In this document: positions 10,981 through 37,075 of the stretch, piece by piece
How the letters are laid out: the number at the start of each line of letters is the position of its first letter
How positions within the stretch are numbered: the first letter of the stretch is position 1
DNA from: Streptomyces natalensis ATCC 27448
GTDB lineage: Bacteria > Actinomycetota > Actinomycetes > Streptomycetales > Streptomycetaceae
Length of the DNA stretch: 64,000 nt
Direction: 5' to 3'
Assembly (NCBI RefSeq): GCF_000935125.1
Contig: NZ_JRKI01000029.1
Coordinates: forward strand, 186,001-250,000
Translations under genes and position numbers: made by a program
The notes under the pieces: model-generated
What the model saw: only the letters and a program-made list of their open reading frames with translations
Told to the model about the DNA's origin: nothing
Database searches by the model: none

Positions 10981-11202
10981 AACGTCGTGCGAAGCGCGGA
11001 GACGGCAACAAGACGGGAACCTGGTACTGGCGGAAGAGCGACGGCCCCCACCGGACGCCGCGGCATCCGCTCGCTGACGCGCCCGGTAGCCGGTCCACCT
11101 GGTACGCCTCCCCCGACAGCCGCCGCAGCAACACCCGGTGAGGTTCGGGGGCGGAGCCACGGAGCGGTGCACGGACTTCGTAGGCGGCTGAGAGTCTGGA
11201 CC

Positions 11203-11313
11203 GGTGCTGACAGAGAGCCGATGCTGATGGAGAGCCGGTGCTGACAGAGAGCCAGTGCTGGCAGAGAGCCGGTGCTGGCAGAGAGCTGGTGCTGACAGAG
11301 AGCCGGTGCTGAG
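11203..11313. repeat. 17-bp tandem repeat, six full copies plus a partial
   Basis: Six contiguous units with consensus GGTGCTGACAGAGAGCC run from 11203 to 11304, followed by a 9-bp partial. Copies differ at one to four positions. The 17-bp period is not a multiple of three, so it is not protein-coding. It lies about 255 bp upstream of rmlC in an otherwise empty 820-bp gap and could be a regulator-binding array or a simple expansion. Confidence 0.9.
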
Positions 11314-32063: not shown

Positions 32064-32720
32064 GAACCCCCTCCTTACAAACCGTCAAGGACCGTAGGGA
32101 CGGCATGGAACGGGGGCAGGGAGACGAGCTGAACGTTCCGGGAACGGGGGACGGCAGGCGTCCCAAGCACTGACGCCCCGCCGCCGGTCCTTCGCCGGAC
32201 CGGACGACACCGACCAGGCACCCGCCTGACAACAGCTCAGCTCAACTCAACTCCCGGGCCCGGCCAGGGACATGGGGCAGGCCCGCGCCAACTCGCCCAC
32301 TGCGGCGTAGATATCTGTACCCCCTTTGAGGACCCGGCACTACTGACCGCGGCTCAGCCGGCAGTGCCGGGACGCCTCGGGGTTGCCGGTGCCGGCGGCT
32401 CGGAGGATTCCCGTCATCCCAGGTCAGGAGGCATGTCTTCGTCGCCAAGCACCCACAGGTAGTGATCGTTTGGTGAATCCGGCTTCAAAGCCTGAGCACA
32501 AGTTGCACACATCCCCTCTTCAGGCGGGCTCCGATGCTCTACATTGACCGTGCTTCACATGACACGAGGCGACAAATCATGATCTATAGGTCCAATGCTA
32601 TGGACAGCCAACAGCCGCGCCCCCGGCGCCAGATGTGGGGGTGATCAATTCCTGGAGCCCGAGAGGGGCTCGGGTGCGGGGAGCACCCGAGGCAGCGCTG
32701 CAACAGCCGGAATGTCATTA
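32064..32720. promoter_or_regulatory. Divergent region between the ABC operon and the polysaccharide operon
   Basis: About 650 bp with no supportable gene. The part from 32460 to 32600 is the least GC-rich of the region (e.g. GACAAATCATGATCTATAGG) and is the natural place for the promoter of the 28-kb polysaccharide operon. No single box is assigned. Confidence 0.4.
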
Positions 32721-32833
32721 GCGGGGGGCGGGGGCCTCCCGGGGGGAGGAACAGCGCGGCGCGGGGGGCGGGGGCTTCCCGAAGGGAGGAACAGTGTGGG
32801 GGGCACGCGCCTCCCAGGGGGAGGAACCGTGTG
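32721..32833 (+). repeat. 40-bp tandem repeat carrying three Shine-Dalgarno hairpins
   Basis: Copies at 32721-32760 and 32761-32800 match at about 34 of 40 bases, and a shorter third copy runs to 32833. Each contains a 6-bp hairpin whose right arm is a GGGAGG ribosome site: 32735-32749 (CCTCCC/GGGAGG), 32775-32789 (CTTCCC/GGGAGG, loop GAA) and 32810-32824 (CCTCCC/GGGAGG). The last precedes the chosen start of the priming transferase. Sequestration could throttle translation of the operon's first gene. Confidence 0.75.
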
Positions 32834-34355
32834 GAGCGAACACGTCGAGCCCACTGGCGACGTGGGGGGGTCTGTGCAACAGGGGGAATGGGTCAGCCCT
32901 TTTCTCTCGGCGGACGGGCATCCGGTGGACGGGGCAGTCAGCCCGCCCGCGATCGACTGGGAGCAGCGCTACCGCCGTACCGTGATCACCAGCGATACCG
33001 TGACCACCGCCTTCGTGGTGGCGGCGATCGGCAACTTCTTCGGGGTCCGGGACGCGGCCAACTGGCATGAGAAGTGGGGGATTCTCGCATTCTGCACCGA
33101 GCTGCTGGTGCTGGGGGCGCTTGCGGTGAGCCGGTCGTGGGCTCCGGCCGTGCTCGGCCAGGGCGCCGAGGAATTCCGCCGGCTCGGACGCTCACTGTTC
33201 ATGGCGACCGTCGTACTGGCGCTCGGCGGGATCGCCCTCACCTCGCGCAACATCAAGCTCTGGATCTTCGTCGCGATACCCGCGATCGCGCTCATCACCA
33301 TGACCGCGCGGTATCTGCTGCGCCTCTGGCTGCACAAACAGCGGAAGGAAGGACGGTGCCTGCGACCGGTGCTAGCTGCCGGGAGCCTGGTCACCGTGCG
33401 CGACCTGATCGCCCGGACCCGCAAGTTCCCGCACCTCGGCTGGCGGGTGGATGCGGTGTGCACGACGGACGGTCTCGGGCTCGACGAGGGTGACCAACTG
33501 GACGGAGTACCGGTCGTCGGTCGCCTGCCGGACGTCGCGAGCCACGTCCAGCGCGACGGTTACCGTGTCGTCGCGGTCACACCGGACCCGTACTGGTCAC
33601 CGGAGCGGCTGCAACGGCTGGCCTGGAACCTCGAAGGCAGCGATGCCGAGATGGTCGTGGCCCCCGTGCTGATGGAGGTGGCCGGCCCGCGGCTGCACGT
33701 CGACGCGGTGCTCGGGATACCACTGCTGCGGGTCAGCATGCCGATCTTCACCGGGGGCCGCCGGGCGGTCAAAGAGGTCGTCGACCGGATGGGCGCGGCG
33801 GTCCTGCTGATGCTGTTCGCGCCGCTGATGGTGCTCGTCGGGCTACTGGTGCTGACGGACAGCCGGGGCGGGGCGTTCTACCGCCAGCGCAGGGTCGGCA
33901 AGGACGGCCGCGAGTTCACCATTCTCAAGTTCCGCACCATGGTCGTCGGGGCCCACGGGGCACGTGCCGCGCTGGCCGACCACAACGAGGGTGCGGGGCT
34001 GTTGTTCAAGGTTCGCCGGGATCCGCGGGTGACCCGGGTGGGAACGGTGCTGCGCCGGTACTCGCTCGACGAGCTCCCGCAGCTCTTCAACGTGCTCACC
34101 GGATCGATGTCGCTCGTCGGTCCGCGCCCTCCGTTGCCGGAGGAGTCCGCCGCGTACGGCCCGGACATCCGGCGACGACTGCTGGTCAAGCCCGGACTCA
34201 CCGGCCTGTGGCAGATCAGCGGACGCAGCGACCTGCCGTGGGAGGAGGCCGTCCGCCTCGACCTGCGGTACGTGGAGGACTGGTCGCTCGCCCTCGACAC
34301 GGTGATCTTGTGGAAGACGCTGCGTGCGGTGCTCCACGGGCAGGGGGCGTACTGA
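32829..34355 (+). CDS. Polyprenyl-phosphate sugar phosphotransferase, priming enzyme of polysaccharide synthesis (WcaJ/CpsE-like)
   Basis: 508 residues from GTG 32829. It transfers sugar-1-phosphate from a nucleotide sugar to undecaprenyl phosphate, the first committed step. Four hydrophobic segments fall in residues about 55-180, a CoA-binding-like middle domain follows, and a last membrane segment is at about 320-343. The catalytic bacterial sugar transferase domain follows: 'YRQRRVGKDGREFTILKFRTM', 'LRRYSLDELPQLFNVLTG', 'MSLVGPRPPLPEE' and 'KPGLTGLWQISGRSD'. The frame is open 230 bp upstream through Gly/Arg-rich repeats, so alternative starts (GTG 32796) exist. It has a GGGGGAGG site inside a hairpin. 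First gene of the operon. Confidence 0.9.
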   Translation: MWSEHVEPTGDVGGSVQQGEWVSPFLSADGHPVDGAVSPPAIDWEQRYRRTVITSDTVTTAFVVAAIGNFFGVRDAANWHEKWGILAFCTELLVLGALAVSRSWAPAVLGQGAEEFRRLGRSLFMATVVLALGGIALTSRNIKLWIFVAIPAIALITMTARYLLRLWLHKQRKEGRCLRPVLAAGSLVTVRDLIARTRKFPHLGWRVDAVCTTDGLGLDEGDQLDGVPVVGRLPDVASHVQRDGYRVVAVTPDPYWSPERLQRLAWNLEGSDAEMVVAPVLMEVAGPRLHVDAVLGIPLLRVSMPIFTGGRRAVKEVVDRMGAAVLLMLFAPLMVLVGLLVLTDSRGGAFYRQRRVGKDGREFTILKFRTMVVGAHGARAALADHNEGAGLLFKVRRDPRVTRVGTVLRRYSLDELPQLFNVLTGSMSLVGPRPPLPEESAAYGPDIRRRLLVKPGLTGLWQISGRSDLPWEEAVRLDLRYVEDWSLALDTVILWKTLRAVLHGQGAY

Positions 34356-34389: not shown

Positions 34390-34420
34390 GGCAGGCCGCA
34401 GGGGCCTGCCTGGGGGGAGG
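34390..34420 (+). promoter_or_regulatory. Hairpin and strong ribosome site before the dehydrogenase
   Basis: GGCAGGCC (34390-34397) pairs with GGCCTGCC (34403-34410), directly followed by TGGGGGGAGG, 8 bp from GTG 34429. It resembles the leader hairpins of the first gene and may set expression of the second. Confidence 0.5.
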
Positions 34421-34428
34421 AACGAGTC

Positions 34429-35760
34429 GTGAGAGTAAGCGTCTTCGGGCTCGGTTACGTGGGCTGCGTGTCGGCCGCGTGCCTGGCCAGCATGGGTCAC
34501 GAGGTCATCGGGGTGGACGTCAACCAGGTGAAGGTCGACCTGGTCAACGACGGCAAGGCCCCGGTGGTCGAGGAACGGATCGGCGAGCTCAGCGCCGAGG
34601 TCGTGCGGGCCGGAGCGTTGCGCGCCACCCGCGACGTCCGCGAGGCGATCATGGGCAGCGAGGTGTCGCTGGTCTGCGTGGGCACGCCGTCGGAGCCCAA
34701 CGGCAGCCTGTGCACCACGTACTTGGAGCGGGTCACCGAGCAGATCGGCGCCGCGCTGGCGGAGCGGGGTGGGCGCAGCGGGCGGCACACCGTCGTGTTC
34801 CGCAGCACCATGCTGCCGGGCACCTGCCTGAACCTGCTGGTACCGATCCTGGAGAAGTACGTCGGCGGCACGACCGGGGTGGACTTCGGGGTCGCGGTCA
34901 ACCCGGAGTTCCTGCGCGAGGGCACGAGCGTGCGGGACTTCTTCGACCCGCCCAAGACCGTCATCGGCGAACTCGACCCGGCAAGCGGCGACGTGGTGGC
35001 GGCGCTGTACGACGGCCTGCCCGGCGAGGTGTTCCGGGTGCCGGTCCCGACGGCCGAGGCCATCAAGTATGCGGACAACGCGTTCCACGGCCTCAAGATC
35101 GGCTTCGCGAACGAGCTGGGCGCGGTGTGCCAGGCGCTCGGGGTGGACTCGCACCAGGTGATCGACGTGTTCCTGGCCGACCGCAAGCTGAACATCAGCC
35201 CCGCCTACCTGCGGCCCGGCTTCGCCTTCGGCGGCTCCTGCCTGCCCAAGGACCTGCGCAGCCTGGTCCACGCGGCGCAGCGGGCCGACGTCTCGGTGCC
35301 CATCCTCGCCCATGTGCTGCCCTCCAACTCCGACCATCTGCAACGCGCGGTGGAGCTGGTCGAGCGCACCGGCAAACGCCGGGTGGGAATGTTCGGGCTG
35401 TCCTTCAAACCCGGCACCGACGACCTCCGTGAGAGCCCGCTCGTCGAGCTGGCGGAGCGGCTCTTCGGCAAGGGTTACGACCTCAAGATCTATGACGCCA
35501 ACGTGAGCCTTTCCCGGCTGCTCGGCGCGAACCGCGAGTACATCGAGAACCGACTGCCGCACCTCGCGCAGCTGCTCGCGGACTCCGTCGACGAGGTGCT
35601 CAAGCATGCCGAGGTGTGCCTGGTCGGGACCAGAGATCCGGCCGTCCTTTCGGCGCTGCCCCATGGCGGCGCCGACGGGTCGCTGATCGTCGACCTCATC
35701 CGCCTTCCCGACGCCGAGTCGCGCCGGGCCGAACCGGGGTACGTGGGCCTTGCTTGGTGA
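34429..35760 (+). CDS. Nucleotide-sugar 6-dehydrogenase, closest in motifs to GDP-mannose dehydrogenase AlgD
   Basis: 443 residues. NAD-dependent four-electron oxidation of a nucleotide hexose to the uronate. Rossmann start 'VSVFGLGYVGCVSA', substrate motif 'VNPEFLREGTSVRDFF', catalytic Cys271 in 'FAFGGSCLPKDLR', and 'FGLSFKPGTDDLRESPLVEL'. The text around residues 320-440 ('LFGKGYDLKIYDANV', 'GANREYIENRLPHL', C-terminal Trp) tracks AlgD better than UDP-glucose dehydrogenases, so GDP-mannose to GDP-mannuronate is my first choice and UDP-glucose the alternative. The GTG start has GGGGGGAGG. The last bases run into a 15-bp tandem repeat shared with the next gene. Confidence 0.85.
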   Translation: MRVSVFGLGYVGCVSAACLASMGHEVIGVDVNQVKVDLVNDGKAPVVEERIGELSAEVVRAGALRATRDVREAIMGSEVSLVCVGTPSEPNGSLCTTYLERVTEQIGAALAERGGRSGRHTVVFRSTMLPGTCLNLLVPILEKYVGGTTGVDFGVAVNPEFLREGTSVRDFFDPPKTVIGELDPASGDVVAALYDGLPGEVFRVPVPTAEAIKYADNAFHGLKIGFANELGAVCQALGVDSHQVIDVFLADRKLNISPAYLRPGFAFGGSCLPKDLRSLVHAAQRADVSVPILAHVLPSNSDHLQRAVELVERTGKRRVGMFGLSFKPGTDDLRESPLVELAERLFGKGYDLKIYDANVSLSRLLGANREYIENRLPHLAQLLADSVDEVLKHAEVCLVGTRDPAVLSALPHGGADGSLIVDLIRLPDAESRRAEPGYVGLAW

Positions 35761-37075
35761 CACATCGTTTGATGACGCATCGTTGGATGACACATCGTTG
35801 GGTGACACATCGTTGGGTGACACAGCCGGCGGCGTCGGGTCGGACCGGCGCGCGCTGATCCTGGTGGAGAACCTGTCGGTGCCGTTCGACCGGCGGGTGT
35901 GGCAGGAGTGCACAACGCTGCGCGACGCGGGCTGGGAGGTGCACGTCATCTGTCCCCGGGGGGAGAAGCGGGACACGGAGCCGGAGGCGGTGATCGACGG
36001 GGTGCGGATCCACCGCTACCCGTTGCGCGCGGCCGCCGGAGGACCGGCCGGCTACCTGCGGGAGTACGGATCGGCGTTGTGGCATACGGCCCGGCTGGCC
36101 CGCAAGGTCGGCCCGGTCGACGTGGTCCACGCCTGCAACCCGCCCGACCTGCTGTTCCTGCCGGCACTGTGGCTGAAGCGGCGCGGCGCGCGGTTCGTCT
36201 TCGACCAGCACGACCTGGTACCCGAGCTGTACCTCTCCCGGTTCGACCGCGGCGAGGACCTGCTCTACCGCGCCGTGTGCGCGCTGGAACGGCGGACCTA
36301 CCGGGCCGCGGACATCGTGCTCGCCACGAACGAGAGCTACCGGGACGTCGCGATGCGCCGTGGCGGCAAGCGGCCGGAGGACGTCTTCGTGGTGCGCAGC
36401 GCGCCCGCGATCGAGCGGTTCCAACCGGTGCCGCCCGAACCGGAGTTGAAGCGCGGCAAGCCTCATCTGCTGTGTTATCTCGGCGTCATGGGCCCTCAGG
36501 ACGGCGTCGACTACGCCTTGCGGGCCCTTGCGGAGCTGCGCGACAAGCTCGGGCGGACCGACTGGCATGCGGTGTTCGTCGGCGCCGGCGACGCCTTCGA
36601 CGCGATGGTGGAGCTGTCCCGGCAGCTCGGGCTAGGGGAGCAGGTGCAGTTCACCGGGCGCATTCCGGACGCCGACCTGGTGCGCTACCTGTCCACCGCG
36701 GACGTGTGCCTCTCCCCCGACCCGCGCAATCCGCTCAACGACGTGTCGACCATGAACAAGGTCCTGGAGTACATGGCGATGGGCCGGCCGATCGTCTCGT
36801 TCGACCTCCGGGAGGCGCGCGTCTCCGCCGGTGACGCCGCCGTCTACGCGCCCGCCAACGACGAGGCAGAGTTCGCCGAGCTCATCGCGCTGCTGCTCGA
36901 CGATCCGGAGAAGCGGGCCCGGATGGGCAAGATCGGCCAGGAGCGGATCGGCGGGCCGCTCTCCTGGCGGAACTCGCAAGCGTCGCTGCTCGCCGCCTAC
37001 GCCGCTGCCTGCCGTGACCATGCTCCGATGTCGGCACGTGGGCCGCTCCGTACGGGGAAGAGGCCGCGCCATTGA
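35750..37075 (+). CDS. Glycosyltransferase family 4 with a repeat-encoded N-terminus
   Basis: Up to 441 residues. The core from about residue 30 is a GT-B retaining transferase: 'ALILVENLSVPFDRRVWQE', 'VDVVHACNPPDLLFLPALW', 'VFDQHDLVPELYL', 'LLCYLGVMGPQDGVDYALRAL', and the donor loop 'NPLNDVSTMNKVLEYMAMGRPIVSFD'. The first about 24 residues (MLGDTSFDDASLDDTSLGDT...) are translated 15-bp repeats. No ATG or GTG with a ribosome site precedes the core, so initiation is probably at TTG 35750 or at a TTG within the repeats, coupled to termination of the dehydrogenase (stop at 35758). It adds a sugar to the lipid-linked intermediate at the cytoplasmic face. Confidence 0.85.
   Translation: MLGDTSFDDASLDDTSLGDTSLGDTAGGVGSDRRALILVENLSVPFDRRVWQECTTLRDAGWEVHVICPRGEKRDTEPEAVIDGVRIHRYPLRAAAGGPAGYLREYGSALWHTARLARKVGPVDVVHACNPPDLLFLPALWLKRRGARFVFDQHDLVPELYLSRFDRGEDLLYRAVCALERRTYRAADIVLATNESYRDVAMRRGGKRPEDVFVVRSAPAIERFQPVPPEPELKRGKPHLLCYLGVMGPQDGVDYALRALAELRDKLGRTDWHAVFVGAGDAFDAMVELSRQLGLGEQVQFTGRIPDADLVRYLSTADVCLSPDPRNPLNDVSTMNKVLEYMAMGRPIVSFDLREARVSAGDAAVYAPANDEAEFAELIALLLDDPEKRARMGKIGQERIGGPLSWRNSQASLLAAYAAACRDHAPMSARGPLRTGKRPRH
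35756..35824. repeat. 15-bp tandem repeat, four copies plus 9 bp
   Basis: Units at 35756-35770, 35771-35785, 35786-35800 and 35801-35815, then GGTGACACA. Consensus GGTGACACATCGTTG. It overlaps the stop of the dehydrogenase and encodes the start of the glycosyltransferase as Asp-Thr-Ser-Leu repeats. Each copy offers a TTG codon. Confidence 0.95.

Follow-up and report, generated by a model that had tools for sequence, protein, structure and literature searches.

The findings presented here confirm a tandem array of three 39-nt units at 32721-32834 on the forward strand of the window (the whole 64,000-nucleotide stretch that was analysed), upstream of a slime-polysaccharide operon. The array is a real, genus-wide, repeated leader element, and the first-pass annotation was right on its place and kind. 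The reading that we favour, tentatively and at slightly below an even chance, is that the units are repeated modules, each made of a hairpin and a Shine-Dalgarno (SD) sequence, in a structured 5′ leader, where they would act on translation initiation of the first gene in either direction. This reading is based on the repeat itself, its conservation, the covariation of one of two competing hairpins, the pattern of start codons in relatives and the recurrence of the same layout at the second gene of the operon.

The array and its recurrence in Streptomyces

Direct-repeat comparison placed the units at spacings of 40 and then 35 nt, with 100, 87 and 79% identity to unit 1, and Tandem Repeats Finder scored the three-unit array at 109. 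All three units lie on the forward strand and carry a hairpin, termed U, followed by an SD-like GGGAGG. Unit 1 (32721-32759) has U at 32722-32741, with the sequence CGGGGGGC-GGGG-GCCTCCCG, and GGGAGG at 32744-32749. Unit 2 (32761-32799) has U at 32762-32781 (CGGGGGGC-GGGG-GCTTCCCG), GGGAGG at 32784-32789 and GTG triplets at 32794 and 32796, while unit 3 (32796-32834) has U at 32797-32816 (TGGGGGGC-ACGC-GCCTCCCA), GGGAGG at 32819-32824 and GTG 32829. The closing pair of the unit 3 hairpin is changed on both sides relative to units 1 and 2, a U-A pair standing at the base in place of C-G. The first-pass annotation had described three CYTCCC-NNN-GGGAGG repeats, the last of them 4 bp from a GTG. 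Indeed, CCTCCC or CTTCCC, a 3-nt spacer and GGGAGG are present in all three units, and in the third unit GGGAGG runs to 32824, which leaves 4 nt to GTG 32829. That description had missed a longer self-complementarity, between CCTCCC and the G-rich stretch located 5′ of it within one unit.

The genes downstream encode, in this order, a Bac_transf transferase, a protein of the UDP-glucose dehydrogenase family, a glycosyltransferase, two Wzz-like proteins and an asparagine-synthase-like protein. Farther downstream in the window there are another glycosyltransferase and a weak Wzy/O-antigen-ligase match, and the gene order suggests that the whole is a polysaccharide operon. According to PMC8902715, the ste cluster makes Ebosin in Streptomyces sp. 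139. A 15-nt tandem repeat (4.8 copies, 35754-35824) is found at the likely start of the glycosyltransferase and encodes a repeated DTSLG-like stretch.

The array is considered more than a chance arrangement because the same unit precedes the orthologous gene in other Streptomyces, the genus to which the window's genome can be assigned by its relatives. A contig scan produced 467 transferase relatives, and the best 80 of these 467 were kept. Enough clean upstream sequence was available for 69 leaders (the window and 68 relatives), and a search of 335 nt upstream, in which worn copies may be missed, listed one unit in 8 of them, two in 22, three in 31, four in 5 and five in 3. The comparison of repeat number that had been proposed earlier hence reveals differences between species, from 1 to 5 in the 69 leaders. 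The spacings in relatives cluster at 35 and 40, and near-identical copies within three loci (L013, L014 and L025) point to recent duplication. Further evidence came from 80 genomes sampled independently and evenly across the order, 65 of them in the genus, counting the window's own, and 15 of other genera. The transferase gene was present in 18 of the 80, that is, in 18 of 65 within the genus and 0 of 15 in the other genera. Of the 17 other gene-bearing genomes, 13 added new loci, 2 gave loci that were already in the set and 2 yielded no anchor; a fuzzy search found units at 12 of the 13 new loci. As judged from these comparisons, the transferase gene is patchy in its distribution, but highly alike where present. 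The exact unit pattern was found in 8 of 150 Streptomyces genomes, with all 8 sites directly upstream of the transferase gene, and none of the 150 carried it away from that gene. Similarly, no other array was found in the window's own genome, where a covariance model scored only the three units strongly. One further CTCCC..GGGAGGAAC site in this genome (L082) had no array and was judged to be chance, as were the weak covariance-model matches (L115 to L120, L126 and L128), which revealed no array on inspection.

Mean pairwise identity was 0.826 in the array, 0.823 at four-fold sites, 0.864 in the block between array and gene (32828-32873) and 0.908 in an upstream box (32532-32556), with 0.70 to 0.82 in other near segments and 0.389 in a far-upstream segment. 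Part of the likeness between leaders is plain ancestry, because the leader overall is no more conserved than synonymous sites. That the array is conserved like four-fold sites, together with the near-identical copies mentioned above and a copy number down to one, would fit a neutral repeat made by replication slippage, or a set of operators for a DNA regulator, in which the RNA structure is incidental. We regard this explanation as improbable, since unit and loop (0.93-0.98) are kept while the flanks and the linker base (0.48) drift, the hairpin U covaries and the layout recurs at the second gene with unrelated sequence.

Two competing hairpins in the unit

The CCTCCC of each unit can pair with the upstream G-run, forming U, or with the downstream GGGAGG, forming D, which was the pairing described in the first-pass annotation. 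U consists of CGGGRGGC-GGGG-GCCTCCCG, that is, 8 bp closed by a GGGG loop, and leaves GGGGAGGAAC outside the stem. When units were folded singly, 153 of 180 adopted U and 27 adopted D; all three window units folded as U, and so did 28 of the 31 new units from the independent sample. In 169 distinct units, 91.2% of the U pairs were standard compared with a shuffled mean of 90.0%, and 12 cells were changed on both sides compared with 3.0, neither value being reached in any of 500 shuffles. For D, by the same counts, which rest on related sequences and duplicated units, the pairs were at 88.6% in both real and shuffled alignments (295 of 500 shuffles reached this value) and the cells changed on both sides were 3 against 3.4 (347 of 500). 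An ungapped count made without shuffles in 139 units put U at 88.2% and D at 86.7%. A separate tool applied to 32 chosen units returned 4/500 for cells paired, 2/500 for the covariation score and 68/500 for pair types in the case of U, and 500/500 and 446/500 in the case of D. When U was slid along the alignment, the paired share dropped to 48-69%, while some of these slid controls had as many double changes or more; it is therefore the shuffles that carry the argument for U. Given the narrow margin and the kinship of the sequences, the comparison supports, rather than proves, that U and not D is the covarying hairpin.

The claim that each hairpin hides its SD did not hold in the comparison of the 169 units, where D can be drawn but stays at the shuffled level and U exceeds every shuffle; compensatory change that would keep an SD-sequestering stem was likewise at the level of the shuffles. 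RNA thermometers and other SD-sequestering hairpins resemble the array in that its CCTCCC is complementary to GGGAGG, and they differ from it in that this pairing has no comparative support in the array, which keeps the alternative stem. A translational brake, in which every unit hides its own SD within CYTCCC-NNN-GGGAGG and might be released by heat, or be held by a G-quadruplex of the 5′ G-run, is accordingly a doubtful explanation, and relatives that break D (for example, GCAGCGAGG in L025) argue against it too. The computational comparisons brought up no signature of a thermosensor. In its favour, most units can form D (88.6% of cells), which is also the preferred fold of the 27 single units given above. 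Folding in a wider context spoke against U. In whole-array folds of 125 units, CCTCCC paired as U with a share of 0.43, with its own SD with 0.12, with the SD of the previous unit with 0.08 and with other partners with 0.37. The mean accessibility of the SD was 0.54 for the last unit and 0.40 for inner units in these folds, and the SD was free in single-unit folds. When the window array was folded in context, unit 1 formed U at 0.73-0.99, units 2 and 3 did not form it, and SD2 and SD3 were mostly paired. In addition, when G-quadruplexes were allowed, 138 of 180 units took one and window units 1 and 2 flipped to D (CCTCCC or CTTCCC with GGGAGG), which became their best fold. A two-layer G-quadruplex pattern is kept in 152 of 169 units. 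We treat the quadruplex folds, with the flip to D, as a lead only, because the energies of two-layer quadruplexes are uncertain. Altogether, the low predicted accessibility of SD2 and SD3 in the window and the flip to D keep SD sequestration alive as a possible behaviour of the array.

The transferase start and the layout at the second gene

The priming sugar transferase (Bac_transf, PF02397) occupies 32874-34355 on the forward strand, with GTG 32874 as its most likely start. Of 77 aligned sequences, 76 keep GTG at this codon and the remaining one (L046) has GTA. The frame that follows it is intact in 77 of 77 over the compared stretch, and many frame-breaking indels are located before it. The start chosen in the first-pass annotation, GTG 32829, fared poorly in the same alignment. 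Only 24 of the 77 sequences have at the equivalent position a start codon whose frame runs uninterrupted into the gene. One further sequence shares the open frame but has no start codon there, 3 are in frame but meet a stop, and the other 49 are out of frame; the second codon was TGA in 10 of 77. In L096, the stretch from the SD through most of the block before the gene has been lost and the main GTG retained. These comparisons indicate that the conserved start is probably GTG 32874 and not 32829, a likely correction to where the operon's first enzyme begins. GTG 32796 and GTG 32829 had been offered as alternative starts of duplicated initiation regions; both are in frame with the transferase, but they occupy non-equivalent positions of their units (32829 and 32831 in unit 3). 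The idea of duplicated initiation regions itself stands, as the units look like duplicated initiation modules.

The block between array and gene (32828-32873, forward strand) is conserved and has one-base indels in many relatives. Codon periodicity in it is low, the values for the three codon positions of 32829-32873 being 0.934, 0.934 and 0.895, and it is likewise low when the comparison is confined to 13 in-frame sequences that share the window's type. In the window's own lineage, the transferase may still be extended N-terminally from 32829. A longer frame running through the repeats, which is open for 586 aa from ATG 32595 in the window, was discarded, as the frame-changing indels of relatives oppose it. 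In 27 of 77 sequences, 23 of which have a start codon at the 32829 equivalent and 4 of which do not, the frame read from that position stops at a TAG shortly after the beginning of the gene. A TAG at main codon 6 occurs in 32 of 42 sequences of the out-of-frame phase-2 class compared with 15 of 28 in the in-frame class. A short overlapping frame acting as a controlled leader peptide was also considered and rejected, since the TAG skew, although suggestive, is confounded by shared descent. Counted from GTG 32874, the sixth codon of the transferase (32889-32891; orthologs L002-L081) is TTA in 35 of the 76 sequences that have this GTG, CTA in 10 and ATA in 8, and TGG in the window. PMC2000904 describes the TTA codon as requiring the bldA tRNA in S. 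coelicolor; as codon 6 is this rare codon in many relatives, expression of the transferase may be bldA-linked there.

The second gene, of the UDP-glucose dehydrogenase family, starts at GTG 34429 and has an SD, GGGGGGAGGAAC, at 34412-34423 on the forward strand. Directly 5′ of this SD there is a hairpin, GGCAGGCC-GCAGG-GGCCTGCC (34390-34410, forward strand), which is placed in the same way before GGGGGGAGGAAC or its variants in 81 sequences, with varied loops, and is duplicated in tandem in 8 of the 81. In the 80 aligned sequences, 92.1% of its cells were paired compared with 88.3% in shuffles and 12 double changes were found compared with 2.2, and 0 of 500 shuffles reached either value. The sequence of this hairpin is unrelated to the array unit, which favours a structure beside the SD and opposes a DNA operator. 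Hairpin-plus-SD layouts occurred at 5 places in the window, as against 2, 4 and 5 in three Markov controls, and the count alone is therefore non-significant; what we counted as relevant is that 4 of the 5 places are the conserved sites, namely the array units and the second gene.

These results support the earlier view of the array as an RNA-level feature of the translation-initiation region and agree with hairpin-plus-SD modules acting at the ribosome, which we take to be the most probable mechanism. The array would be part of the 5′ leader of the polysaccharide operon mRNA, a leader whose transcription we infer. One module would comprise the 8-bp hairpin with its GGGG loop, two nucleotides and then a free SD-like GGGGAGGAAC, and modules would gain and lose copies by tandem duplication. 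The hairpins may keep the purine-rich docking sites from burial by upstream RNA, and the array could supply several sites for 30S docking upstream of the real start, GTG 32874, with a positive or a negative effect. The most that GTG 32829 could do would be to add an in-frame extension in certain species, or elsewhere to start a short frame that overlaps the gene. We counted against the module reading the in-context folds, the G-quadruplex flip, the conservation at the level of four-fold sites and the Markov layout count. Standby sites and other 5′UTR structures that raise translation are similar to the array, as they place structure upstream of a docking site, with a presumed action on the ribosome, and have been tested in tandem forms; in the part of PMC11087576 that deals with them, single hairpins alone gave no gain and two hairpins a moderate one. 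The elements described there are synthetic and were used in E. coli and in vitro, whereas the array is natural, repeated, genus-wide and known from its sequence.

G-rich loops, the upstream leader and known systems

Of the 169 units, 143 have GGGG as the loop of U, and the individual loop positions are as well conserved (93-98%) as the stem. GGGG-loop hairpins occurred 2.84 times per 460-nt leader in the 69 leaders compared with 0.10 in Markov controls, and the entire window has 5 on one strand and 2 on the other. A further hairpin, CTCGGGTGC-GGGGA-GCACCCGAG, is located upstream of the array at 32669-32691 (forward strand) and was found by ungapped match in 58 of 70 leaders. Its stem is unlike that of the array unit and covaries, with 13 double changes compared with 5.7 in shuffles (0 of 500) and 89.7% paired compared with 88.1% (1 of 500), and its loop is GGGGA in 49 of the 58. 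The hairpin of the second gene does not have such a loop, so that the loop is not a mere habit of hairpins. The conserved loops, the many GGGG hairpins and the varied loops at the second gene led us to retain a loop-binding regulator among the readings. Specifically, a putative RNA-binding protein could bridge the GGGG and GGGGA loops and the SD in a multivalent, CsrA-like manner, as CsrA acts with loops beside the SD in the glgC, psl and pgaA leaders according to PMC7652899. We consider this unlikely, though worth keeping in mind: the CsrA and TRAP families went unmatched in the window's genome, no candidate protein is at hand, unit 3 of the window has the loop ACGC and two other units have ACGG, and G-rich loops may simply be inherited. 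Equally unlikely in our estimation is its more specific form, a Streptomyces-specific leader whose GGGG(A) loops, a single one ahead of the array plus one to five within it, would be the multivalent target through which the putative regulator sets expression of the polysaccharide operon, with CsrA-like logic in the absence of CsrA and a number of sites tuned by duplication. In a variant, the leader would be a three-state switch between the U hairpin, a G-quadruplex and SD pairing.

The CsrA/RsmA leaders described in the relevant part of PMC7652899 (glgC, psl and pgaABCD) resemble the array in that they precede carbohydrate or biofilm-polysaccharide genes, and in their hairpins beside the SD, their repeated sites and the GGA of a G-rich loop. 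They differ in presenting ANGGAN on a weak stem, whereas the array presents GGGG on an 8-bp stem in a variable tandem number. The loops depart from the ANGGAN rule, as the array has GGGG (in the 143 units above) and the leader GGGGA contains GGA but not ANGGAN. A search for CsrA (PF02599) gave no match in the window's genome and matched 3 of 14 control genomes, and a search of the window's genome for TRAP (PF02081) gave none. ANTAR dual-hairpin antiterminators, as presented in PMC3369931, are also tandem small leader hairpins with conserved loops, and one ANTAR domain gene is present in the window's genome. Their target, according to the same source text, has two hexanucleotide loops with A at position 1 and G at position 4. 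An ANTAR target was rejected for the array, where none of the 169 units has A at 1 (166 have G at 4) and no terminator was found. Antitermination of the LoaP/RfaH type, by a NusG paralogue, was rejected because the window's genome has a single NusG gene (one PF02357 match). That a cluster of hairpins without a U-tract might act here as a transcription attenuator, a role proposed for hairpin clusters in bacteria, is very improbable. PMC8355165 describes two tandem hairpins as terminating better than one in M. smegmatis, and the array has the likely promoter upstream of it and the gene downstream; an attenuator would leave the conservation of GGGGAGGAAC after each hairpin unexplained, a search for a terminator-like site found none, and the single NusG gene counts against it as well.

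Against Rfam, the window gave 0 matches at the gathering score, and 7 loci totalling 60147 bases gave 0 with the limit relaxed to E 1. No published description of the array was found in the literature searched, whose coverage left out most subscription papers. RNAalifold found little consistent structure over the whole upstream leader, owing to varying leader lengths and to about 80 nt that the window is without. Most relatives carry this extra stretch downstream of the GGGGA hairpin and ahead of the array, at the place that corresponds to 32690-32700 of the window. In a genome with no CsrA match and a leader with no Rfam family, the array of hairpin-plus-SD modules constitutes a system for asking how SD-adjacent hairpins change translation, and its variable copy number allows one to ask whether repeat number is a natural tuning knob.

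The most conserved boxes upstream, AGCACAAGTTGCACACATCC and CGATGCTCTACATTGACCGTGCTTC (32495-32556, forward strand), probably mark the promoter region. Within them, 32532-32556 had the highest pairwise identity (0.908) among the non-coding stretches measured at this locus; it carries a TAGATT/TACATT hexamer and is likely to be the promoter. Other repeats were observed elsewhere in the window. A 17-nt tandem repeat is present in 6.6 copies at 11201-11312, and a repeat of about 30 bases, GGGGTATCCCCTGCTCGAAGAGCTTGGGGAAGG, occurs three times (28884, 38172 and 45993), once on the forward and twice on the reverse strand, inside open reading frames.
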